From assembly GCA_947383215.1 (NCBI GenBank), contig CANDCP010000016.1, positions 1 through 58,980 on the forward strand: 58,980 nt of DNA. Reading direction: 5' to 3'. The stretch comes from an uncultured Roseburia sp. (GTDB lineage: Bacteria; Bacillota; Clostridia; Lachnospirales; Lachnospiraceae). The notes below the pieces were generated by a model that was given only the letters and a program-made list of their open reading frames with translations, searched no databases and was not told the origin of the DNA. Position numbers and translations under genes: made by a program. Within the stretch, counting starts at the first letter, position 1; each line of letters begins with the position of its first letter. This document shows, one piece after another, positions 3,235 through 16,717 of the stretch.

Positions 3235-5142
3235 ATGAGGAAAAAAATTGTTGCAGCGGTACTCGCTGCGATCGTTGCGGTCGGAGAAATACCGGCGTCT
3301 ATGTATGCCGCGGAGACAGGCGCGTTCGAAACGCAGGCGGCGGGAAGCGACATTGCGCAGCTGTCGGAGGTGGACAGCGGAAGCTGCGGGAACGGCGTAA
3401 CGTATACGCTGGATGGCGAGGGGACATTGGTCTTGTCAGGAGACGGGGAAATTGCGGCACAGGCGTTTTTTGAGAGAAAAGACATCAAAAAAGTTGTGAT
3501 TGAAGACGGAATAACGGGCATCGGAGATCATGCATTTTGGGGATGCAGCGCCCTGACGGACGCAGACATTCCGTCGAGTGTGAAGAGCATCGGGTTTATG
3601 GCTTTTTTTCAGTGCAGTAATATGACGAGCGTAGGAAATCCGTCCGGATTAACGCGTATCGGGGATCAGGCATTTCAGAACTGCAGCAGCCTGACCGGCA
3701 TAGAGATTCCGTCAAGCGTGACGAGCATCGGTTCTCATGCGTTTAGCGGCTGTAGCGACCTGAAGGACTTAAAGATTTCGGAGGGAGTAACAGACTTCGG
3801 TCCTTCGTTATTTAGCGGTTGCAGCAGCTTGACAGAGATAAAGATTCCGTTTGGCGTTACGAGTATCGGGGAAAACACATTTAATGGTTGTATCAACCTG
3901 GCGAAGATAGAGATTCCGTCAAGTGTGACAAGCATCGGGGAATACGCGTTTTGGGGATGCAGCAGCCTGACGAAGATAGAGATTCCGTCAAGTGTGTTAA
4001 GTATCGGAGGAAGCGCATTTCTGGAATGCGTTGGCCTGAAGAACGTAAAGATTCCGTCAGGTGTGACGAGTATCGGGGATTATGCATTTGCTTATTGCAG
4101 CGATCTGACGGGTATAGAAATTCCGTCAAGTGTGACGAGTATCGGGAACGGGGCTTTTGAGGATTGTATCAATCTGAAAATTTACTGTGAAGAAAATTCT
4201 TATGCGTATACCTACGCGAATCAGAATAATATTCAGTCGGTGACCTCGGGCGAAATGCCGAGCGAGACGCCAAGTGAGACACCAAGCGAAACGCCGAGTG
4301 AAACACCGAGCGAGATACCAAGCGAAACGCCGAGTGAGACACCAAGCGAAACGCCGAGCGAGACGCCAAGTGAGACACCGAGCGAGATACCAAGTGAAAC
4401 ACCGAGCGAGATACCAAGCGAAACGCCGAGTGAGATACCAAGCGAAACGCCGAGTGAGAAGCCAAGCGAAACGCCAAGTGAAACACCGAGCGAGATACCA
4501 AGTGAAACACCAAGCGAAACGCCGAGTGAAACACCGAGCGAGATACCAAGCGAAACACCGAGCGAGATACCAAGCGAAACACCGAGTGAGATACCAAGCG
4601 AAAAGCCAAGTGAAACGCCGAGTGAGACGCCGAGCGAGATACCAAGCGAAACACCGAGTGAGAAGCCAAGCGAGACACCGAGCGAGAAGCCAAGCGAAAC
4701 GCCGAGTGAAAAACCAAGCGAGAAGCCGAGCGAAAAGCCGAGTGAAAAGCCAAGCGAGAAGCCGAGCGAAAAACCGTCGGCTCCGGCAGAAAATAAGACG
4801 GTGAAGGTTAAGAAGGCGCTGTATGAGATAATAGATGGAAATACTGTTGCTTATGCAGGAACGACTGACAGTAAAGCAAAACAAATAAAGATTCCGAAAA
4901 CGATCCGGGTTAACGGAAAACAATATAAGGTAACAAAGATTAAAAAAATTGCCGTTAAGAAATGCAAGAAACTGAAAACCATTATCATTCAGTCGACGAA
5001 TCTTAAATCCATCAGTAAGAACGCCTTTAAAGGAATTAAAGCTTCGGTTAAGATTAAGGTGCCGAAGAAGAAGCTTTCTGCATATAAGAAGAAGCTGCGA
5101 AAGAGCGGAGTGAGTAAGAAGGTCAAGATTGTCAAATATTAA
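3235..5142 (+). CDS. BspA-type leucine-rich repeat surface protein with PSE-x stalk
   Basis: 635 residues; GGGAGAGGGATATATA precedes ATG 3235. Layout: signal peptide (residues 1-26, cleavage after MYAA); an N-cap shared with clostridial LRR_5 proteins (SGSCGNGVTYTLDGEGTLVL); about ten 23-residue LRR_5 repeats (residues about 75-325, recurring IEIPSSVTSIGxxAFxxCSSL); 43 tetrapeptide repeats PSE-T/I/K (residues 342-513); and a Lys-rich C-terminal module of about 115 residues ending in KVKIVKY. The same N-cap and C-terminal module recur in the 13586 gene of this window. LRR_5/BspA proteins are usually adhesins. The repeat region resembles a rigid, wall-spanning stalk. There is no LPXTG motif; the basic C-terminal module may bind anionic wall polymers, which is inference. 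In the repeat region long open frames on other strands are artefacts of the 12-base period. Confidence 0.85.
   Translation: MRKKIVAAVLAAIVAVGEIPASMYAAETGAFETQAAGSDIAQLSEVDSGSCGNGVTYTLDGEGTLVLSGDGEIAAQAFFERKDIKKVVIEDGITGIGDHAFWGCSALTDADIPSSVKSIGFMAFFQCSNMTSVGNPSGLTRIGDQAFQNCSSLTGIEIPSSVTSIGSHAFSGCSDLKDLKISEGVTDFGPSLFSGCSSLTEIKIPFGVTSIGENTFNGCINLAKIEIPSSVTSIGEYAFWGCSSLTKIEIPSSVLSIGGSAFLECVGLKNVKIPSGVTSIGDYAFAYCSDLTGIEIPSSVTSIGNGAFEDCINLKIYCEENSYAYTYANQNNIQSVTSGEMPSETPSETPSETPSETPSEIPSETPSETPSETPSETPSETPSEIPSETPSEIPSETPSEIPSETPSEKPSETPSETPSEIPSETPSETPSETPSEIPSETPSEIPSETPSEIPSEKPSETPSETPSEIPSETPSEKPSETPSEKPSETPSEKPSEKPSEKPSEKPSEKPSEKPSAPAENKTVKVKKALYEIIDGNTVAYAGTTDSKAKQIKIPKTIRVNGKQYKVTKIKKIAVKKCKKLKTIIIQSTNLKSISKNAFKGIKASVKIKVPKKKLSAYKKKLRKSGVSKKVKIVKY
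4258..4773 (+). repeat. 12-bp tandem repeat encoding 43 PSE-x units
   Basis: 516 bases of near-perfect 12-base units of the form cc(a/g)-ag(c/t)-ga(a/g)-a(c/t/a)n, all in frame inside the LRR protein, giving exactly 43 Pro-Ser-Glu-x tetrapeptides. The fourth residue is mostly Thr in the first part, with Ile interspersed in the middle, and is only Lys in the last six units. Third-codon positions vary, so it is not a fresh expansion, but slippage or recombination between strains is likely. Confidence 0.95.
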
Positions 5143-5441: not shown

Positions 5442-7859
5442 ATGAGCAATACTTACAATCCAAAAGCAATCGAAAAAAAGTGGCAGAAGATCTGGGACGA
5501 TGAAAAGGCGTTCGCTGCGGGGACGGATTATTCCAAACCGAAGTTTTATGCGCTGGTAGAATTTCCGTATCCGTCCGGGCAGGGGCTTCATGTGGGGCAT
5601 CCAAGGCCGTATACGGCTCTGGATATTGTCGCGAGAAAGAGAAGAATGCAGGGATATAATGTTTTATATCCGATGGGGTGGGACGCGTTCGGCCTTCCGA
5701 CGGAAAATTATGCGATCAAGAATAAGATTCATCCGAAAATTGTGACAAACAATAACGTGCAGAGATTTAAAGAGCAGTTGAAGTCTCTTGGCTATTCGTT
5801 TGACTGGGACAGAGAAATTAATACGACGGATCCGAATTATTATAAATGGACGCAGTGGATTTTCCTGAAATTATTTAAGGCGGGACTGGCTTACAAAAAA
5901 GAGATGCCGATTAACTGGTGTACCTCCTGTAAGGTTGGACTTGCAAACGAAGAGGTGGTAAACGGAGTCTGTGAGCGCTGCGGAGCTCCGGTTGTCCGCA
6001 AGGTAAAGAGCGAGTGGATGTTAAAAATTACGGAGTATGCGGACAAATTAATTGAGGGTCTAAGCGGGGTGGATTATATTGAGCGCGTCAAGGTGTCGCA
6101 GAAGAACTGGATCGGAAAGTCCATGGGCGCTGAGGTTGACTTTTCAATTGCGGGGAAAGAAGATAAGCTGCGCGTCTATACGACGAGGTGCGACACCTTA
6201 TTTGGAGCCACATACATGGTAGTGTCTCCGGAACATCCGCTGATTGACAAATATCAGGATGAGTTAAAGAACTGGGATGAGATTGCGGCGTACCGCGAGG
6301 AGGCGTCTAAAAAGTCGGATTTTGAGCGCGCGGAACTGGCGAAGGAAAAGACTGGCGTTATGCTCGATGGCTTAAAGGCCGTGAATCCGGTAAACGGCAA
6401 GGAAATTCCAATCTGGATTTCGGATTATGTTCTGATGTCCTACGGTACGGGGGCGATTATGGCAGTTCCGGCGCACGACGACAGAGACTGGGAATTTGCC
6501 AAAAAGTTTCATCTGCCGATGGTTCAGGTCGTTGCGAAAAACGGGGAAGAAGTCGATATCAACGAGGCGGCGTTTACCGATGTCGCGACGGGGGTTCTGA
6601 TTCATTCGGACTTTTTGAACGGACTTGAGGTAAAAGACGCAAAGGCAAAGATGGTTGAATTTCTGGAAGAAAAAGGCATCGGTACGGCAAAGACGAATTA
6701 TAAGTTAAGAGATTGGGTATTTTCGCGTCAACGTTACTGGGGCGAGCCGATTCCGATTGTCTCCTGTGAAAAATGCGGCTTCGTTCCGTTGGATGAGAGC
6801 GAGCTTCCGCTGCTGCTGCCGGAGGTGGACAGCTATATGCCGACAGACAACGGGGAATCCCCGCTTGCGGCGATGACGGAGTGGGTGAATACGACGTGCC
6901 CTTGCTGCGGCGGGCCTGCGAAACGTGAGACGGATACAATGCCGCAGTGGGCCGGTTCTTCCTGGTACTTTTTAAGATACTGCGATCCGGCGAACGAGAA
7001 AGCGCTGGCCGGCGAGGAGGCGTTAAAATATTGGATGCCGGTCGATTGGTATAACGGCGGAATGGAGCACACGACGCTTCATCTTTTGTATTCCAGATTT
7101 TGGCATAAGTTCCTCTATGACAAGGGCGTTGTCCCTTGCGCGGAACCTTACCAGAAGAGAACCTCCCACGGCATGATCCTCGGAGAGAACGGCGAAAAAA
7201 TGTCGAAGTCCAGGGGGAACGTCGTAAATCCGGACGATATCGTAAGAGATTACGGCACCGATACTTTAAGGACGTATGAGATGTTTATCGGCGCGTTTGA
7301 TTTGAGCGCGTCCTGGTCCGAGGACGGGGTAAAAGGTTGCCGCCGTTTCTTGGAGCGCGTCTGGAAGCTTCAGGATATGATCGTGGATGGCGGGGAGTAT
7401 TCGAAAGAGCTGGAGACAAAAATGCATCAGACAATCAAAAAGGTGAGCAATGATTTTGAGGCGATGAAATTTAATACGGCAATTGCCCAGATGATGACGA
7501 TGGTAAACGAATTTTATCGTGTGAAAAAAGTGACGAAAAAGGAGCTGTCCACCTTGCTGATTCTTTTAAATCCGGTCGCTCCGCATATGACTGAGGAGAT
7601 GTGGGAGCTGATTGGGGAGCGCGGGCATATCTATGAAAATACATGGCCGGATTATGATGAGGCAAAGACCGTAGAAAACGAAGTCGAGATTGCGGTACAG
7701 ATCAACGGTAAAATCAAGGCGACCATTACGGTTGCCAAGGACATTGCAAAAGAGGAGGCCATCGCGCTCGGAAAAGAAGCGCTGGGCGATAAGCTGACCG
7801 GAAATATTGTAAAAGAAATATACGTGCCGGGCAGAATTATCAACATTGTTGTAAAATAA
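5442..7859 (+). CDS. leuS: Leucyl-tRNA synthetase
   Basis: 805 residues, the usual length for bacterial LeuRS. It charges tRNA-Leu with leucine using ATP in the cytoplasm. Visible: class I HIGH-type motif HVGH within [13 protein letters not shown] (residues 46-58); a zinc site CTSCK...CERCG (about residues 163-185); the CP1 editing domain (about 220-410, with [12 protein letters not shown] and [15 protein letters not shown]); a second Cys pair in the insertion before the catalytic core closes; the KMSKS loop EKMSKSRGN (about 585); and a C-terminal anticodon-binding and tail domain. The start follows AAAGGAGTTTTATATT. It is controlled by the T-box immediately upstream and appears to be monocistronic. 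Confidence 0.98.
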
Positions 7860-7880
7860 TAGAGATGGGAGATTGTATTT

Positions 7881-8050
7881 ATGAAAAAAATAAGGTAAAT
7901 CATATTTCATGTATCTTTTATTTTGATGTTACTCGCTGTGCCGGCGGCGGATTTTTCCGCCTCGAAGGCGCATGCGGAAGGATCCGTCTATATCACGCCG
8001 ACCGGGGCGGGATATCGCACATATAGGTGCGGAAACGGAAGATTATTATT
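7881..8050 (+). pseudogene. Relic of a small secreted-protein gene
   Basis: GGGAGATTGTATTT and ATG 7881 open a frame MKKIR that is stopped at codon 6 (TAA 7896-7898). The same frame then continues as a typical signal-peptide core and cleavage region (ILMLLAVPAADFSASKAHAEG) followed by VYITPTGAGYRTYRCGNG. VYITPTG-x-YHxxxCGNG-like motifs are common in small secreted Lachnospiraceae proteins. The gene is thus broken in its signal peptide and cut short by the start of the next gene, with which it remains in frame. The next gene has its own ribosome binding site, so the fused reading from 7923 is not the protein start. A sequencing error at the stop codon is the alternative. Confidence 0.55.
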
Positions 8051-8063
8051 AGGAGATGAAATT

Positions 8064-9248
8064 ATGGCAGAGATAGCGCAGATTATCAAATATGAAGGGG
8101 ATAACAGTACATTTGTCTGGAAGCATCCCATTGAGGATTTTAATACGTCAACACAGTTAATTGTACATGAGTCTCAGGAAGCGATTTTTTTTATGAACGG
8201 TCAGGCTTTGGATTTATTCGGGCCGGGGCGGCATACTTTGGAAACGCAGAACATTCCGCTGCTTAGAAGGATTATCAGTATTCCGACGGGATCTGGAACG
8301 CCGTTTCACTGCGAAGTTTATTTTATCAATAAGACAGAGCAGATGGCGGTAAAATGGGGGACGGACAGCAAGGTGCAGTTTATGGAGCCAAAACTGCAGT
8401 TTCCGCTGCAGATCGGCGCCAGCGGCGAGATGGCGCTGCGGGCGGATGATTCCCGCAAATTGCTGGTAAAGCTTGTCGGAACCGAAAAAGATCTCGGGCA
8501 GCAGGGATTGGTACAGAAATTCCGCGCGGTGTTAATGACAAAGGTGAAATCATATCTCGCAAAAGCAATCCGGGAAAATGAAATCAGTATTTTTGAGATC
8601 GACGAGTATCTGGACAAGATATCTGCGGATTTGCACAGCTGGCTGACGCCGGATTTTGGAGAGTACGGCGTGGCGCTGGAGCGTTTCTTTGTCACGACCA
8701 TTGTCCGCCCGGAGGGGGAGAGAGATTATGAGAAGTTTAAAGAGTTATACTTCAGACAGTATGGCGACGTGAAAGAAGCGCAGATCAGACAGCAGGTTGA
8801 AATTATCAATCAGCAGACCAGGGCGCAGCAGATGATGATCGAGTCGCAGGCGCTGGCGGCAAAGCGTGCTCAGGAGGGATATACATATCAGCAGGAGCGC
8901 GGGTTTGACGTTGCCGAGAAGGTCGCGTCGAATGAAGCGGCGGGACAGTTTACGAATATGGGCGTGGGTCTTGGGACAATGGTCGGCGTCGGGGGCGCGA
9001 TTGGCGGTATGGTCACAGGCGCGGTCACAGGCGCAATCGGCGGTGAGAATACGGCAGGCGCTTCTTTGGCTGCGGAGAAAAAATTCTGTGAGAACTGTGG
9101 GGCCCAGGTTACCCCGGGAGCGGCTTTTTGCGCGCAGTGCGGTCAAAAGCTGACCGATGAGAAAAGGTGTCTGCAGTGCGGATATTTATTTGAAAATCCG
9201 GGAAAATTCTGCCCGAAGTGCGGGGCAAAAAGGGAGGGAACCGTATGA
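8064..9248 (+). CDS. SPFH-domain protein with C-terminal double zinc ribbon
   Basis: 394 residues; ATG 8064 is chosen because AGGAGATGAAATT lies just before it, although the frame is open back to 7923. Residues about 1-260 are an SPFH/Band-7-like region of the 'virion core protein' (YdjI-like) group: MAEIAQIIKYEGDN, FVWKHPIEDFNTSTQLIVHESQEA and FGPGRHTLETQNIP are typical. A Gln/Ala-rich helix follows (about 265-320), then a glycine-rich stretch (GVGLGTMVGVGGAIGG), and two zinc-ribbon halves: CENCGAQV...CAQCGQ and CLQCGYLF...CPKCGAK. SPFH proteins assemble at membranes as scaffolds. The stop overlaps the next ATG (ATGA), so translation is coupled to the 4-TM protein, and the TIR protein follows. 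First gene of a three-gene operon. Confidence 0.85.
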   Translation: MAEIAQIIKYEGDNSTFVWKHPIEDFNTSTQLIVHESQEAIFFMNGQALDLFGPGRHTLETQNIPLLRRIISIPTGSGTPFHCEVYFINKTEQMAVKWGTDSKVQFMEPKLQFPLQIGASGEMALRADDSRKLLVKLVGTEKDLGQQGLVQKFRAVLMTKVKSYLAKAIRENEISIFEIDEYLDKISADLHSWLTPDFGEYGVALERFFVTTIVRPEGERDYEKFKELYFRQYGDVKEAQIRQQVEIINQQTRAQQMMIESQALAAKRAQEGYTYQQERGFDVAEKVASNEAAGQFTNMGVGLGTMVGVGGAIGGMVTGAVTGAIGGENTAGASLAAEKKFCENCGAQVTPGAAFCAQCGQKLTDEKRCLQCGYLFENPGKFCPKCGAKREGTV

Positions 9249-9931
9249 AAAGGAAACAATTTTATTTGTTAGCGGCGTCAGTAGTGTTTCTTATCGTTTT
9301 TCATGTGATTGCGTTTGCGTTTCCGTTTGAACGGACGAGAGGATTTTGGATAGAATATGTATGCTCCGCGCTTGCAATTATTCTGTTTCTGGGAGTGACG
9401 GCTGCCTTTTGTATCAGGGAAACGCCGATGAAAAGCAAGTTTTTGGACTGGCCGGTTTTGTATGTCAGCTATGTTCTGCTCATTGTACAGCTGTGCGTTG
9501 GTTTTGTGGTGATGGCGCTTCCGATGATTCCGTATTGGGCTGCGCTGATTGTCAGCGCGTTGATTTTGGGGGGTGGAGCAATCCTGATTTTGACCGTAAA
9601 GCCCTCGGCCGATGAGATTGAAAGAGTAGGTGAAAGCGTCTCTTCAAAAGTAAATTATATTCAAAGAATATATACGAAAACAGATGTCATGGCAAAAAAT
9701 GCCGGGGATAAGGCGCTGTCCGGTGAACTAAAGAAACTGGCGGAGGATATCCGTTTCAGCGATCCGATGTCGAACGGCGAATTATACGAGATGGAATGCG
9801 AAATTGAGAGAGAGGTCGATAAGCTGGGAGAAATCCTTGCGCGGGCGGATTATGGGGCTGCGCCGGAAAAGATACGTGAGATCCGGCAGGTTCTTCAGGA
9901 ACGAAATATAAAATGCAAAATGCTTAAATAG
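9245..9931 (+). CDS. Four-helix membrane protein of the SPFH-TIR operon
   Basis: 228 residues from ATG 9245, which overlaps the preceding stop by four bases; AAAGGGAGGGAACCGT lies before it. Four hydrophobic segments are visible: residues about 7-25, 36-56, 70-90 and 95-117. A cytosolic C-terminal domain of about 110 residues follows that is charged and helical (ADEIERVGESVSSKVNYIQRIY, REIRQVLQERNIKCKMLK). No family is recognised. Spacing and translational coupling indicate it works with the SPFH protein, perhaps as its membrane platform. The next gene begins 29 bases after its stop with its own strong ribosome binding site. Confidence 0.75.
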   Translation: MKRKQFYLLAASVVFLIVFHVIAFAFPFERTRGFWIEYVCSALAIILFLGVTAAFCIRETPMKSKFLDWPVLYVSYVLLIVQLCVGFVVMALPMIPYWAALIVSALILGGGAILILTVKPSADEIERVGESVSSKVNYIQRIYTKTDVMAKNAGDKALSGELKKLAEDIRFSDPMSNGELYEMECEIEREVDKLGEILARADYGAAPEKIREIRQVLQERNIKCKMLK

Positions 9932-9960
9932 TTTAGAGTACAAAGGAGGGTGGTGTGAAA

Positions 9961-11670
9961 ATGTTATTTAAATGTAAAATGTGCGGCGGTGATCTGGAGA
10001 TCATAGAGGATTCTACCGTTGCGGTCTGCGAATACTGCGGTTCCAAGCAGACGCTGCCGAGGCTGTCGGATGACAGGAAACGTAATATGTATGACCGGGC
10101 AAATCATTTCAGGAGAAATAATGCGTACGATAAGGCGATGTCTATCTATGAGAATATATTAAATGAGGACACAACGGACGCAGAAGCGTATTGGTCGCTG
10201 ATACTGTGTAAATACGGCATTGAATATGTGGAAGATCCCAGGACGAGCAGACGGTTTCCTACCTGTAACAGGACGCACTATACATCCGTGCTGGCGGACG
10301 AGGATTACAAGGCGGCTATCCGTTACGCGGACGATCGGCAAAAGGAAATATACGAGGCGGAGGCCAGAGAGATCGATGCGATTCAGAAAAATATCCTGGA
10401 GATATCAAGAAAAGAGGAGCCGTTTGATATTTTTATCTGTTATAAGGAATCGGACCGCAGCGGAAAGAGAACGCCGGACAGCGTGATTGCGCAGGATATG
10501 TATTACCAGCTTGTCCAGGAGGGATATAAAGTGTTTTTTTCGAGAATTACGCTGGAAAACAAGCTGGGTACGGCGTATGAACCGTATATTTTTGCGGCGT
10601 TAAATTCGGCGAAAGTCATGATTGTGGTTGCGACAAAACGTGAATATATAAACGCCGTGTGGGTGGAAAATGAATGGTCGCGGTTTTTAGGAATGGCGGC
10701 GGATAATCCGGATAAGATGCTGATTCCGGCTTATCGGGATATGGATCCGTATGATTTACCGGAGGAATTTTCCCATTTACAGGCTCTTGACATGTCAAAA
10801 ATCGGATTTATGCAGGATTTGATTCACGGCATAAAAAAGATCGTAAAAGAGGAAAGAGAGAGCGATTCTTCTGATGACGAGACGCCTGCAAGGAATGCCG
10901 CAGTTAACGTGGCTCCTCTGTTAGAGCGGGTATATCTTTTTCTTGAGGACGGCGACTGGGAGAATGCGAACATATATTGCGAAAAGGTGCTGGACGCGGA
11001 ACCTAAGAATGCACGGGCGTATCTGGGCAAGCTTATGGCAGAGCTTGAGGTGAGCAAAGCGGAAAAACTCATAGACTGTCCCGAGCCGTTTGACGGACGC
11101 AAGAATTATCAGAAAACAATCCGTTTTGCGGATGAGCGGTTGAGGCACACGCTCGAGCAATGTGTGGCAAGCATTAAAAGCCGCAATGAGCAGGAGCGTT
11201 CGGAGAGAATCTATGCGGACAGTGTCTCCAAGATGGAGCAGGCGCAAAATGAGGACGAGTATAGGGCGGCGGCAGGCGGTTTTGGAAGCATTTCGGGGTA
11301 CAGGGATGCGAATGTACTCATGGAACAGTGCCGGGAGCTGGCGGAAAGCGTGCGCAAGGATAACGTTCTGAAAAAAGCGAGGCTAAAAGAGGAAGACATA
11401 TCGATTCAGTCGTTGATAGGGGCATTGGCATCATTGGGAACCATACAGGGGTGGAAAGAGGCAGATCAAATCGCTTCGGAGTACAGGGTTAAATTGGAGA
11501 ACTTAAAGGCCCAAGAGGAGCGGAAACGGATCGAAAGGGAACAGCAGGAGGAACAGAGACGTCTTTTGCAAGAGAGGCGGGAACGCGGGAAAGAACTGGC
11601 TTTTCGCTTTATTGTCATTGCTGTTTTTGCGGGCGTGGCGTTTGCGTTTTTATGGAAAAATATAATTTGA
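9961..11670 (+). CDS. Zinc-ribbon TIR-domain protein with C-terminal membrane anchor
   Basis: 569 residues from ATG 9961 (GTG 9955 in the same frame is also possible; AAAGGAGGG lies at 9942-9950). Order: N-terminal zinc ribbon (C5xxC8, C23xxC26); a helical TPR-like region (about 40-150); a TIR domain (about 154-298) beginning PFDIFICYKESD; a second TPR-like region (about 315-470); a Glu/Arg-rich coiled coil (about 505-545); and a C-terminal hydrophobic helix FIVIAVFAGVAFAFLW that would tail-anchor it. In TIR enzymes the NAD-cleaving glutamate lies in a WCxxE-type motif; here WVENE places it at E238, so catalytic activity is plausible. Many bacterial TIR proteins act in antiphage defence or NAD signalling. 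With an SPFH scaffold and a 4-TM protein upstream, a membrane-localised TIR signalling complex is inferred. Ends before a strong hairpin at 11698-11749. Confidence 0.85.
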   Translation: MLFKCKMCGGDLEIIEDSTVAVCEYCGSKQTLPRLSDDRKRNMYDRANHFRRNNAYDKAMSIYENILNEDTTDAEAYWSLILCKYGIEYVEDPRTSRRFPTCNRTHYTSVLADEDYKAAIRYADDRQKEIYEAEAREIDAIQKNILEISRKEEPFDIFICYKESDRSGKRTPDSVIAQDMYYQLVQEGYKVFFSRITLENKLGTAYEPYIFAALNSAKVMIVVATKREYINAVWVENEWSRFLGMAADNPDKMLIPAYRDMDPYDLPEEFSHLQALDMSKIGFMQDLIHGIKKIVKEERESDSSDDETPARNAAVNVAPLLERVYLFLEDGDWENANIYCEKVLDAEPKNARAYLGKLMAELEVSKAEKLIDCPEPFDGRKNYQKTIRFADERLRHTLEQCVASIKSRNEQERSERIYADSVSKMEQAQNEDEYRAAAGGFGSISGYRDANVLMEQCRELAESVRKDNVLKKARLKEEDISIQSLIGALASLGTIQGWKEADQIASEYRVKLENLKAQEERKRIEREQQEEQRRLLQERRERGKELAFRFIVIAVFAGVAFAFLWKNII

Positions 11671-11793: not shown

Positions 11794-12075
11794 TTATCTT
11801 TTCCTCATATTCCGCATCAGCATCATAATCTGATCCGTTCTTTTTTGTTCCTCCGGCGACATATTTTGTTTTAAAAGTCCGACCAGAAGGTCCGTTTCGT
11901 TTGGCGTAAATTCCATGCCGTTTTGTTTTGCCTTAGAGGCTGCGCCCATCAGGACATTCGCCATGTCTTTTGTGTTGTCCGGCGGATTGTTTGAGGCGAG
12001 TTCCATTAAAAAATTCAGCTTTTGCGGGTTCATATTTTTCAGTTCAGGATTATTTGCTAAAAAATCAAGATTCAT
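11794..12075 (-). CDS. Small conserved-looking protein of unknown function
   Basis: 93 residues, begins MNLDFLANNPELKNMNPQKL and ends MRNMRKR. It is all-helical by composition, rich in Asn, Met, Leu and Lys, with no signal peptide or membrane segment. The frame is clean and codon use matches the neighbours. No ribosome binding site touches the ATG: the nearest purine stretch (AAAGGAAA) is about 34 bases upstream and is separated from the start by a perfect hairpin at 12089-12108. It lies downstream of, and in the same direction as, another small helical gene. No family recognised; probably a lineage-specific cytosolic protein. Confidence 0.6.
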   Translation of the reverse strand: MNLDFLANNPELKNMNPQKLNFLMELASNNPPDNTKDMANVLMGAASKAKQNGMEFTPNETDLLVGLLKQNMSPEEQKRTDQIMMLMRNMRKR

Positions 12076-12088
12076 TTTCGGATTTTGG

Positions 12089-12108
12089 CAGACGATACGC
12101 GTCGTCTG
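12089..12108 (-). other. Hairpin between ribosome binding site and start
   Basis: CAGACGA-TACGCG-TCGTCTG is a perfect 7-base inverted repeat with a six-base loop. On the minus strand it lies between AAAGGAAA and the ATG of the 11794-12075 gene. Looping it out would bring the purine stretch to about 14 bases from the ATG. Confidence 0.55.
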
Positions 12109-12137
12109 TTTCCTTTCTTTTTTATTATAGTATGAGA

Positions 12138-12467
12138 TCAGGAAAACAATGTTTCATACGTAGAGAACATCTGAAACATATTTAACAGCGAATCAATATT
12201 TTCTTTTTCTTTTTCCGTGCACATTTCACTTAAATCTTCTAACATCTGTAACATACGTTCTTTGCCGTCTGTGATTTCACACATCTGCAGGCAAGGCGTG
12301 GAAGCGGAAAAAATGCGTGCGGTATGCTGCAATTCCATATATTTGATCATGACGGCAAGAGTCTTTTGCTGTTTCCATTCCATGTAGGGAAGCATCGTTT
12401 TTAACATTTGTAGTTCGTGCGTGGAAACCTGTGTATCAAAGGCAGTTGGTTTAAATTCGTTGTCCAT
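12138..12467 (-). CDS. Small helical protein of unknown function
   Basis: 109 residues with a good site (AAAGGATTTTCC) before its ATG. The sequence is helical and Met/Leu/Glu-rich (STHELQMLKTMLPYMEW, LLNMFQMFSTYETLFS), without signal peptide, membrane segment or known motif. It is the upstream partner of the 11794-12075 gene, 62 bases away; the two are probably co-transcribed. In style both resemble small Met-rich proteins seen in Lachnospiraceae genomes, but I cannot name a family. Confidence 0.65.
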   Translation of the reverse strand: MDNEFKPTAFDTQVSTHELQMLKTMLPYMEWKQQKTLAVMIKYMELQHTARIFSASTPCLQMCEITDGKERMLQMLEDLSEMCTEKEKENIDSLLNMFQMFSTYETLFS

Positions 12468-13585: not shown

Positions 13586-16500
13586 ATGAGAAAAAAGTGG
13601 ATTGCAATGTTACTCGTCGTTATGGTGACAGCGGAGGGAGCGCCTGCTTTAACGTTGGCTGGCGAAACGGGAACAAATGTAGAACTGCCGGGTATGGAAG
13701 AGGAGGAATATGTAGCTGCGGAGAGCGGCTCATGCGGCGACAGCGTAACGTATGAACTGGACGGCGAGGGGACGCTTGTGATATCGGGAAACGGGGAGAT
13801 GTGGGAGAATAACTCTCCGTTTCAAGGGAGATACGATATCAAAAAAGCAGTGGTAGAAGAGGGTGTGACAAGCATCGGAAACAGTATGTTTTCAGGGTGT
13901 TATATGCTTACAGAGATTTCGCTTCCAAACAGTTTGACAAGCATCGGGAATTTTGCATTTTGCGAGTCTTCGATAAAGAGCCTGACGATCCCGGAGGAAG
14001 TGACAAGCATCGGACTTGGGGCTTTTGAGGACAGCGATCTGATCCGCATAAGTATTCCGGCGAAGGTGGCAAGCATGGATGCGCCATTCCGGATGTGTTG
14101 CGATTTATCGTTCATAGAAGTGGATAAAAACAATATGAATTACAGCTCTCAAGACGGGGTATTGTTTGATAAAAGCCAGAGTACGCTTTTCTGCTATCCG
14201 CCGAAGAAGGCGGGGGAATCGTATGGGATTGCCAAGAGTGTGAAAAAAATTGAGGACTGGGCATTTTTAGACTGTCGAAGCTTAAAAAATATAGATATTC
14301 CGGAAGGCTTAACAGAAATAGGAGAGGGGGCGTTTGCAGATTGTACGCATTTAAGGAATGTGAAACTTCCCAAAAATATGGAAAAAATCACAGACAGTAT
14401 ATTTAGCGGCTGTTCGAGCCTGGAAGATATTTCGATTCCGGAGCATGTGACAAGCATCGGAGACAGTTCCTTTTACGATTGCATCAGTTTAAAGAACATT
14501 GTCCTTCCGACCGGAGTGAAACAAATTGGAAGCTATGCGTTCAGCGATTGTATAAATTTAAAAGAAGTTATAATTCCGCAAAGTGTAACAAGAATCAGAG
14601 AGGATGCATTCTGCCGATGTCGTAGTCTGACGGATATTTTGCTTCCGCAAAAAATAGAGGAGCTGGAAGAAGAGATTTTTTATGAGTGTCGCAGTCTTTG
14701 TGGTATTGCGATTCCGGAGAATGTGAAATCGATTGGATACAATGCGTTCGCCGGCTGTGAAAATTTGGCGGACATTACTCTGCCGGAAAGTGTGACGAGC
14801 ATCGGTTCGGGAGCGTTTGGCGGATGTGTAAAACTGGAGAGCGCGGTTATTCCAAAGGGTGTCGGGAGGATTGAGACTGGAATATTTGCCAATTGCAGCA
14901 GTTTAAAAAAGATAGAGGTGGCAGAGGACAACCCGAATTACTGTTCGCCGGGCGGAGTGTTGTTAGACAAAGAAAAAGAGACGTTGATAAATTATCCGGC
15001 GGCAAAGAGCGGCAGTTATCAGATTCCGGAAAGTGTGAAAAATATTTCGGAATCGGCGTTTGCAGGCTGCTCCGGGCTGCAGGAGGTGATTTTGCCGGAA
15101 GGAGTGACGGAAATTAGTTGGAGCGCGTTTTTTAACTGCAGCAGTTTGAAAAATGTTTACATACCGGCAAGCCTGACCGTTCTTATGCCAAGAGCTTTCG
15201 ACGGCTGCAGCAGTCTTGAGGCATTTAACGTCAGCGAAGACAATATGGCGTATCGTTCGCAGGACGGTGTCCTGATTCAAAATGATACAGACAACTTGAT
15301 AAAATTTCCGGAGGGCAAGGGCGGCAGTTACCGGATTCCGGATAGCGTCAGATCTGTTTCGCCGGATGCTTTTTTTGGCTGTGTGAATTTGGAGAGCGTC
15401 GAAATACCGGAGCATCTGGAAGCGCAGCCATGGGCATTTATTCGTTTTGAAAACTGCGGCAGTCTATGCAGCATTTCTGTGGATGAGGGGAATATGTCTT
15501 ACAGTTCCGAGGACGGCGTCCTATTTGATAAGAAGAAAGAACAGTTATACAAGTATCCGGAGGGCAGGGATGGCGGCTATCGGATTCCGGACGGAGTAAA
15601 AACAATCGGAGCGGGGGCATTTGTAAACTGCGCGAAGCTTGACAGGCTGACAATTCCAAAGAGCGTGGTAAATACGCAGTATGGCGAGGGGAATTCATTT
15701 GGAGGGCGCGGTATCTTAAGCGCCATAGAGGTGGACGAAAAGAATTCCAAATACAGTTCTGATGAGGGAATTCTTTTTGATAAGGAGCAAAAAGCATTGC
15801 TGCGCTATCCGTCAGGCAGAAGCGGCGATTATTGGATCGGGGAGGGGACAGAGATGATTGGGGAAAAAGCATTCTCCGGCTGTGTGGGGATTGTGAATCT
15901 CTATATACCGGACAGTGTGACGCGTATCGGCAGCGATGCGTTTTCGGACTGCGGCAATCTTGTCATTCACTGCTCGAAATATTCTGAAGCGTATTTTACG
16001 GCGCTGAAAGAGCAGATTCCTTTCGTAATTGAGGGAGGGGAGGAAGAGAAGAGGTCTTACATCGTTACGTTTGATGTAAACGGCGGCGAAGAGCTTCGTT
16101 TGTCCATAAAAACAGTGGACGAGGGCGAGGTTCTCGGAGCGTTGCCGGCGCCAAAGCGGGACGGATATACGTTTAAAGGCTGGTTTACGGCGAAGACAGG
16201 CGGAAGCGCAGTGTCCGTCAATACTGTCGTCACATCGGAGCTTACGGTGTATGCACAGTGGGAAATCATTGCAAAAGAACCGGATAAAGGCGGTACGGAA
16301 GGTCCGCAGCCGATCGAGGCCGGGGCCAATAAATATGAGACGTCCGACGGCGAAACCTTGGTTTATACGGGAAGCATGGACAGGAAAAAGAAAAAAGTGA
16401 CGATTCCGTCGTCTGTCAAGGTTGGAGAGAAAACGTATAAGGTGACGGCAATTGCGGCGGGGGCATTTAAAAATTCGAAGGTAACGGGCGTTACAATCGG

Positions 16501-16717
16501 AAGCAATATCAGGAGTATCGGAAAAGATGCGTTTAGAAACTGTAAGAAATTAAAGACAATTGTTATCAAATCGACAAAATTAAAATCGGTTGGAAAAAAT
16601 GCGTTTAAAGGCGTCGGAGCAAAGGTAAAGATGAAGGTTCCGAAAAAGAAATTGTCCGCATATAAAAAGCTGTTCCGAAAACGCGGACTCAGCAAAAAAG
16701 TAAAATTTAAAAAATAG
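13586..16717 (+). CDS. Large BspA-type leucine-rich repeat surface protein
   Basis: 1043 residues; AAAGGAGGAAAAGA precedes ATG 13586. Signal peptide residues 1-26 (MRKKW, hydrophobic core, cleavage near LAGE). The N-cap SGSCGDSVTYELDGEGTLVI matches that of the 3235 protein. Residues about 90-810 are LRR_5 repeats, interrupted five times by a 45-50 residue unit of the form VDxxNxxYSSxDGVLFDK...LxxYPxxxxGxYxIP. Residues about 827-892 are a Listeria-Bacteroides repeat (VTFDVNGGEE, RDGYTFKGWF, VYAQWE). The C-terminal 130 residues repeat the Lys-rich module of the 3235 protein (KLKTIVIKSTKLKSVGKNAFKG, KVPKKKLSAYKK). No LPXTG or TM anchor. Probable adhesin or glycan-binding surface protein; the ligand is unknown. 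Transcription ends at a strong terminator at 16759. Confidence 0.88.
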   Translation: MRKKWIAMLLVVMVTAEGAPALTLAGETGTNVELPGMEEEEYVAAESGSCGDSVTYELDGEGTLVISGNGEMWENNSPFQGRYDIKKAVVEEGVTSIGNSMFSGCYMLTEISLPNSLTSIGNFAFCESSIKSLTIPEEVTSIGLGAFEDSDLIRISIPAKVASMDAPFRMCCDLSFIEVDKNNMNYSSQDGVLFDKSQSTLFCYPPKKAGESYGIAKSVKKIEDWAFLDCRSLKNIDIPEGLTEIGEGAFADCTHLRNVKLPKNMEKITDSIFSGCSSLEDISIPEHVTSIGDSSFYDCISLKNIVLPTGVKQIGSYAFSDCINLKEVIIPQSVTRIREDAFCRCRSLTDILLPQKIEELEEEIFYECRSLCGIAIPENVKSIGYNAFAGCENLADITLPESVTSIGSGAFGGCVKLESAVIPKGVGRIETGIFANCSSLKKIEVAEDNPNYCSPGGVLLDKEKETLINYPAAKSGSYQIPESVKNISESAFAGCSGLQEVILPEGVTEISWSAFFNCSSLKNVYIPASLTVLMPRAFDGCSSLEAFNVSEDNMAYRSQDGVLIQNDTDNLIKFPEGKGGSYRIPDSVRSVSPDAFFGCVNLESVEIPEHLEAQPWAFIRFENCGSLCSISVDEGNMSYSSEDGVLFDKKKEQLYKYPEGRDGGYRIPDGVKTIGAGAFVNCAKLDRLTIPKSVVNTQYGEGNSFGGRGILSAIEVDEKNSKYSSDEGILFDKEQKALLRYPSGRSGDYWIGEGTEMIGEKAFSGCVGIVNLYIPDSVTRIGSDAFSDCGNLVIHCSKYSEAYFTALKEQIPFVIEGGEEEKRSYIVTFDVNGGEELRLSIKTVDEGEVLGALPAPKRDGYTFKGWFTAKTGGSAVSVNTVVTSELTVYAQWEIIAKEPDKGGTEGPQPIEAGANKYETSDGETLVYTGSMDRKKKKVTIPSSVKVGEKTYKVTAIAAGAFKNSKVTGVTIGSNIRSIGKDAFRNCKKLKTIVIKSTKLKSVGKNAFKGVGAKVKMKVPKKKLSAYKKLFRKRGLSKKVKFKK

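Follow-up and report, generated by a model that had tools for sequence, protein, structure and literature searches.

An SPFH, four-transmembrane and TIR gene trio of Clostridia as a candidate membrane receptor system with exchangeable sensors

To our knowledge, the prokaryotic TIR immune proteins (Thoeris, TIR effectors of CBASS and SpbK) are intracellular. Membrane platforms with SPFH proteins are represented by Bacillus subtilis, where PspA, a protein of the envelope-stress response, is organised at the membrane by YdjI, YdjG and YdjH, as stated in an excerpt of PMC8581546. Furthermore, antigen sensors diversified by diversity-generating retroelements (DGR) link variable sensors of the C-lectin type with conflict effectors, TIR among them (Dore 2024, excerpt of PMC10907252). 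Here, we analysed a DNA stretch of 58,980 nucleotides (hereafter the window) from an uncultured Roseburia sp. (GCA_947383215.1, contig CANDCP010000016.1), corresponding to contig 16 of a 2.86-Mb genome, with the focus on three genes for an SPFH/Band-7 protein, a four-transmembrane (four-TM) protein and a zinc ribbon-TPR-TIR protein (Table 1). This trio is a conserved, patchy membrane module of Clostridia, and its third gene, as judged from sequence, usually encodes a type II receptor with a cytosolic zinc ribbon, TPRs and TIR, one TM segment and an outward sensor. With moderate confidence, we assign the trio, as a single copy, to a bacterial system of membrane receptors, in which an SPFH/four-TM platform, an outward sensor and NAD+ cleavage by the TIR domain would serve a conflict purpose.

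The three coupled genes were described in an earlier note, made from the letters of the window, and their layout was confirmed: the SPFH and four-TM genes overlap by ATGA, a gap of 29 bases precedes the TIR gene, and all are located on one strand. Pfam recognised the Band_7 domain and the double zinc ribbon in the first protein and the TIR in the third one, where the order of zinc ribbon, TPR, TIR and TM also agreed with the note. TM segments were called throughout with the Kyte-Doolittle window, which gave four for the second protein, as had been expected, and zero for the SPFH protein, predicted to be a scaffold of a membrane complex. No Pfam family matched the four-TM protein above the cut-off; in its AlphaFold2 model the TM part forms four long helices and is followed by a helical bundle.

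The TIR protein was detected in 14 of 150 genomes of the family (E up to 1e-10, a few matching only in part), 3 of 8 of the genus, 21 of 391 of the class (12 families) and 2 of 398 of the phylum. In the congeners G151 and G154 (loci L192 and L193), leuS, coding for an 89% identical protein, is directly followed by orthologues of the genes at 11794-12075 and 12138-12467, with the whole trio absent. The trio of G155 occupies the same leuS site as in the window, and in G056, the third congener with the trio, it resides on contig C4 and leuS on C37. Since this comparison is made across species, gain and loss are not distinguishable. The distribution and the empty leuS site show a patchy module, not the universal core genes that would have spoken against the earlier note.

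Trio-type SPFH was present in 39 of the 391 class genomes, namely in 18 of 21 TIR-positive versus 21 of 370 TIR-negative ones (Fisher 1.5e-17), and in 17 of the 21 it was located on the TIR contig within approximately 3 kb (counts from two match tables, with the window genome among the 21). It should be added that trio members served to build the class-level SPFH profile and that the tested sample contained at least one of them (L134 = G559:C44), so that this test favours trio-type SPFH, not SPFH in general. At the family level, with one window protein as a query and strong matches picked by eye, co-occurrence was seen in 7 of 10 versus 9 of 140 genomes (Fisher 3.9e-6). The concern of the earlier note, that TIR homologues might mostly lack the partners, was thus not borne out.

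Linkage was also assessed at 79 loci from named genomes, taken from the best 80 of at least 569 matches on genome contigs. A full trio was called in 45 of them, TIR with SPFH in 4, TIR with four-TM in 2, TIR only in 27 and none in 1. SPFH and TIR shared the strand in all 49 loci with SPFH, and SPFH-4TM-TIR was the commonest gene order (29/79). Where at least 5 kb were available on both sides, SPFH was present in 22 of 26 loci and both partners in 19 of 26; the strictest flank cut gave 16 and 13 of 20, respectively. These counts indicate that SPFH and four-TM partners are usual, not obligatory.

The C-terminal hydrophobic segment of the window TIR protein, regarded in the earlier note as a tail anchor, proved to be the TM of a longer receptor, as the 80%-identical orthologue from a congener (L103:8807-11347) continues for about 285 residues. 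Among 102 complete TIR proteins, 69 possessed a single TM, 16 several and 17 none, and most of the single-TM proteins extended well beyond it, up to 1371 residues. Pfam analysis of 74 of the 77 post-TM regions (L144, whose TM call was doubtful, was left out, as were L105 and L151, which duplicate L103 and L081) revealed DUF6273 in 43, RCC1_2 in 10, LRR_5 in 6 and Flg_new in 5. TIR_2 and LRR_5, with the TM between, were found in one full-length chain in L120, L128 and L160, the latter being the only TIR-LRR protein with SPFH and four-TM in view. In 73 single-TM proteins (the duplicate genomes L103/L105 and L081/L151 being counted twice), the number of lysines plus arginines within 20 residues beside the TM was 7.4 on the N-terminal versus 2.4 on the C-terminal side; the N-side exceeded the C-side in 69 of 73 proteins and the reverse was observed in none, which places the C-terminal domain of those proteins outside.

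Among relatives of the four-TM protein, L082, L083, L158 and L178 (391-512 residues) have a loop of ca. 210-300 residues between TM1 and TM2, and in L179 a relative of 510 residues shows other TM spacing. The long loop is perhaps a second outward sensor.

Sensors can differ even where the cytosolic parts are nearly identical. In tandem arrays, such copies were 89-98% alike in their cytosolic parts, versus 41-79% or no or short match in their sensors. For the first 300 residues versus the post-TM part, the values were 95.5% and no match in L159, 98% and 42% in L082, 91% and 41% in L158, and 98% and 69-79% in L126; some other array pairs diverge in both halves. Entropy per column in 23 DUF6273 receptors, a comparison limited to the DUF6273 domains of the TIR-receptor family, was 0.42 bits for TIR, 1.53 for the DUF6273 core and 2.41 for the WWLRSP-VRPALW loop, the most variable of eight stretches measured. 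The fold of DUF6273-like domains is similar to that of C-type lectins, and in phage tentaclins their surface hairpin is mutated by a retroelement (excerpt of PMC10743442); the WWLRSP-VRPALW loop may be the equivalent of that hairpin. A DGR near the trio was considered and rejected in a search confined to reverse transcriptases: a rough regular expression found none among the genes called for 102 sources, and RVT_1 was present in 3 of 10 genomes, in none of them on the TIR contig, and was absent from the window genome and G155. Exchangeable and mostly outward sensors, tandem arrays and the truncation of the window copy, described below, go beyond what the earlier note had read.

The output domain appears to be conserved. 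The motif W-[VI]-x-N-E-W, with the glutamate at the position of E238, was found in 115 of 115 TIR homologues scoring above 300 bits, a set with the same two pairs of duplicate genomes, partly selected because the genome scan that brought in L105-L183 had WV[KR]NEWxR[FY] as one of its two seeds. It was kept in 39 of 39 copies obtained without motif-seed selection (20/20 from genome searches not seeded by a motif and 19/19 further array copies) and, for the loci at the class and phylum levels, in all 29 proteins, chosen there by their box-1 motif. The 115 do not include five matches scoring 100-300 bits, namely pieces near contig ends in L122 and L155, two pieces of a broken frame in L170 and the paralogue L097:7827-9377, which has a zinc ribbon and no recognisable TIR; only one L170 piece among them showed the motif. 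Conservation of the E238 glutamate, proposed earlier from the window alone, therefore holds, and it is a glutamate of the WxxxE-type motif expected of catalytic, NAD-cleaving TIRs. Between the window and G155 (L103), the ratio of nonsynonymous to synonymous substitution rates (dN/dS) was 0.026 in the zinc-ribbon part, 0.042 in TIR, 0.026 in leuS, 0.078 in SPFH, 0.121 in four-TM and 0.148 in the TPR part, with synonymous sites near saturation. The low TIR value amid faster surroundings is what would be expected of a conserved output domain bearing an active site, and cleavage of NAD+ by the receptor family is likely.

Alternatively, the TIR may have no enzymatic activity and serve for assembly, like its counterpart in animal Toll-like receptors, with the output coming from another partner, e.g. 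from the four-TM protein as a pore or death-type four-helix domain. We regard this as improbable. The likeness of the modelled four-TM bundle to MLKL and plant CC domains may be taken as a lead only. A SLATT-type pore was tried for the four-TM protein and rejected, as a weak first match was followed by a match in 1 of 40 members (E 0.012, below the cut-off).

For the functioning of the module, we infer the formation of a complex, a ligand, NAD+ cleavage and its outcome as follows. The four-TM and zinc-ribbon SPFH proteins would form a membrane platform that holds and clusters the receptors, much like YdjH/YdjG and YdjI do for PspA. The outward, fast-changing sensor, i.e. lectin-like DUF6273, RCC1 propeller or BspA-type leucine-rich repeats, would bind a ligand, upon which the TIR domains may cluster and cleave NAD+, so that the cell would be killed or arrested, or an ADP-ribose-type signal produced. 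The purpose would most likely be conflict, in which phages, competitors or breaches of the surface are recognised. A bolder proposition, which we consider rather unlikely, is that of a new immune-receptor family: diversifying surface Toll-like receptors (TIR-TM-LRR, lectin-like or RCC1) on the SPFH/four-TM platform would detect structures of phages or competitors, either prior to entry or in its course, and act through NAD+ cleavage and a four-TM protein with a death-type-like bundle, and the sensor-less copies would be MyD88-like adaptors.

A conflict or defence purpose is plausible because of the patchiness, the empty site, the arrays, the sensor swapping and the weakly matching HEPN- and SIR2-like genes in some operons. 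With regard to the latter, 30 extra operon genes were noted, 11 of which were scanned individually, mostly because they had an RX4H motif or seemed to resemble SIR2; one gene of L196 was scanned in addition. Pfam matches were HEPN-like pEK499_p136 in L196 (E 3.6e-5) and L138 (6e-4), Apea-like in L178 (0.01) and SIR2_2 in L082 (1.2e-4), and PADLOC added SIR2 (6.1e-5) and PDC-S31 (2.3e-33) in L159 and PDC-S21 (3.4e-7) in L140. The extra genes of L107 and L158 had the RX4H motif and no HEPN match, those of L131 and L141 had no matches, and that of L162 is a short-chain dehydrogenase. The TIR protein of the window itself gave a sole, weak PADLOC match to the candidate PDC-S66 (E 1.1e-5, 23 bits).

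Several observations weigh against this reading. All four Pfam matches to HEPN and SIR2 families (L196, L138, L178, L082) were below the curated cut-offs. The phage and plasmid collections gave 0 matches each. The 140 neighbouring proteins at 31 loci were mostly products of metabolic genes, and PADLOC matches among them were scattered (AbiE, type III methyltransferase, DEDDh and PDC-S48 among the 25 commonest of 53 families). This set covered 31 of 52 qualifying loci and 140 of 142 proteins (L103 leuS and L143:1922-2353 being left out), with the 25 commonest of 53 and 167 families viewed, and the scan was confined to carrier loci, without matched control neighbourhoods. Location in defence islands was consequently rejected for the 31 loci examined. 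Moreover, SPFH was absent from the stored flank in 30 of 79 loci, four of which (L116, L120, L153, L181) had at least 7 kb on both sides; two of the TIR-LRR proteins have no SPFH in view (L120, with none within its flanks, and L128, which starts 2 kb from a contig end); and a DUF6273-type motif occurred in 7 of the 17 TM-less TIR proteins, so that the sensor is not always outside and a cytosolic version also exists. Finally, SPFH and four-TM are found without TIR, too.

Trio-type SPFH without a full TIR neighbour was observed at L087 and L089-L096, with four-TM alongside in all except L089 and with zinc-ribbon proteins (L087, L093), a HerA-like ATPase (L091) or an ADP-ribosylglycohydrolase (L096:7459-8259) as neighbours. 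These loci suggest a reusable platform.

The viral-contig collection contained two loci, L196 and L197. At L196:1827-10454, with flank genes read from translations, genes for a lysozyme of the GH25 type, a phage-type protein and a serine recombinase are followed by SPFH, four-TM, a HEPN-like gene and the TIR receptor; this trio is possibly carried by a prophage or located at a prophage edge.

The metabolic neighbourhoods without defence islands at the loci examined and the near absence from phages, plasmids and viral contigs would fit an environmental or envelope-sensing function, not immunity, in which receptors on a YdjGHI-like platform read gut glycans, peptidoglycan or neighbours and TIR-made NAD metabolites tune metabolism or adhesion. 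The B. subtilis precedent and the fact that many carriers are, judging by the titles of their records, gut or rumen Clostridia point in the same direction. Fast sensor swapping, tandem arrays and presence or absence at one site, on the other hand, resemble conflict genes more, and some operons contain HEPN-, SIR2- and PDC-type genes; altogether, such a sensing function seems somewhat unlikely to us. The immune or NAD-signalling module of the earlier note is upheld in part, as to co-occurrence, conserved glutamate and patchiness, and not as to a defence-island neighbourhood.

The copy in the window is a special case of the proposed conflict receptor. Homology of its TIR gene to the 846-residue orthologue (L103) ends at about 11682, just past the TM; in this genome the sensor was lost, and the copy would be at most a partner or a constitutive or regulatory form, or be decaying. 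That it is a decaying relic, which would be compatible with each of the functions considered above, we regard tentatively as possible: both outward parts are gone, i.e. the post-TM sensor and the upstream gene for a Big_2 surface protein, which precedes the trio in intact form in the congener L103 (5562-6857) and is reduced here to its start. Nevertheless, all three window frames are open and under purifying selection versus L103, a dN/dS signal that averages the whole divergence and is still compatible with recent decay. Copies that likewise stop just behind the TM, without a contig end nearby, exist in L148:4532-6172, L162:7022-8692 and L176:1612-3054, and the one in L162 adjoins a complete paralogue, to which its cytosolic part is 95% identical. 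With these three further loci, the sensor-less form may be functional or may represent decay.

Features of the trio site are compiled in Table 1. Two BspA-type leucine-rich-repeat proteins flank the trio, at 3235-5142 (3 kb upstream) and 13586-16717 (2 kb downstream), both with an N-terminal hydrophobic stretch and with LRR_5 scores of 264.6 and 487.5 bits, respectively; the former carries a long SETPSE-type repeat. LRR_5 is also the sensor domain in some TIR receptors elsewhere. The second TIR domain of the window genome belongs to a different protein, in an open frame of 178 residues (TIR_2 45.7 bits; L002; L259, G000:C25:9000-19000).

Table 1. Trio genes, their domains and flanking features in the window (positions in nucleotides)
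Feature	Position	Strand	Support
SPFH/Band-7 protein, 394 aa, C-terminal double zinc ribbon	8064..9248	+	Band_7_1 128.7 bits (PF13421), DZR 42.9 bits (Pfam)
Band_7_1 domain within SPFH gene	8139..8714	+	Pfam
Four-TM protein, 228 aa, helical bundle after TMs	9245..9931	+	TM calls; AlphaFold2 mean pLDDT 91.9
Zinc ribbon-TPR-TIR-TPR-TM protein, 569 aa; sensor-less copy of transmembrane TIR receptor (predicted)	9961..11670	+	
N-terminal zinc ribbon of TIR protein, two CxxC	9970..10050	+	Invariant in 14 aligned relatives
TIR_2 domain	10429..10800	+	Pfam 47.8 bits vs cut-off 28
E238 codon, candidate NAD-cleaving glutamate (WVENEW)	10672..10674	+	Invariant in 14/14 aligned relatives
Single TM segment of TIR protein	11596..11652	+	N-terminal side strongly basic (positive-inside)
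leuS, left flank of trio site	5442..7859	+	
Remnant of Big_2 surface-protein gene start	7865..8040	+	79.5% over 176 bases vs L103
Two small genes, right flank (11794-12075, 12138-12467)	11794..12467	-	

Full-text searches of an open-licence library, with most subscription journals outside its scope, listed no recognisable description of the trio or of a bacterial TIR-TM-LRR or TIR-TM-DUF6273 receptor. The DGR-diversified antigen sensors differ from the trio by their retroelement, as no reverse transcriptase was found near trios, in the window genome or in G155. Thoeris (ThsB/ThcB) shares with it a bacterial TIR and candidate NAD chemistry, with ThcB4 matched weakly (E 3.4e-4; 19.6 bits against a cut-off of 220); in contrast to Thoeris, the trio has the layout of a membrane receptor, and there is no ThsA-type effector among its three genes. 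The B. subtilis pspA-ydjGHI operon is similar in combining a zinc-ribbon SPFH (YdjI), a membrane protein (YdjH) and a protein with zinc ribbon and TM (YdjG), and PF13421 has matches in B. subtilis as well, one of which is presumably YdjI. Unlike the four-TM protein with its bundle and the TIR of the trio, however, YdjH contains a TPM domain and YdjG a domain of the NTF2-like type (excerpt of PMC11237479); Pfam found no TPM domain in the four-TM protein, and no PspA was seen next to the window trio, whose neighbours are leuS and two small genes.

As in animal Toll-like receptors, the TIR in the cytosol is connected by a single TM with a ligand domain facing outward, which consists of leucine-rich repeats in a few proteins, and the closest TIR in PDB by sequence is that of TLR15/TLR2 (7ylf, E 7.5e-5). 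The combination of TIR inside, single TM and leucine-rich repeats outside was found in a minority (L120, L128, L160), and the window copy is without an ectodomain. Differences comprise the N-terminal location of TIR, i.e. an order reversed, in the aligned and mapped proteins, relative to the N-terminal ectodomain and C-terminal TIR of Toll-like receptors, the zinc ribbon and TPRs inside, a sensor that is usually DUF6273 or RCC1, the SPFH and four-TM partners and the conserved NADase-type glutamate. With this reversed order, the family may be said to work like a Toll-like receptor, not to be one. If the proposed receptor reading is true, SPFH membrane platforms would be tied to TIR signalling in gut Clostridia, the origin of TIR receptors and of surface immunity would become testable in bacteria, and a bacterial TIR receptor that faces outward and whose sensors (lectin-like, propeller or leucine-rich-repeat) are interchangeable would represent a structural analogue of Toll-like receptors.

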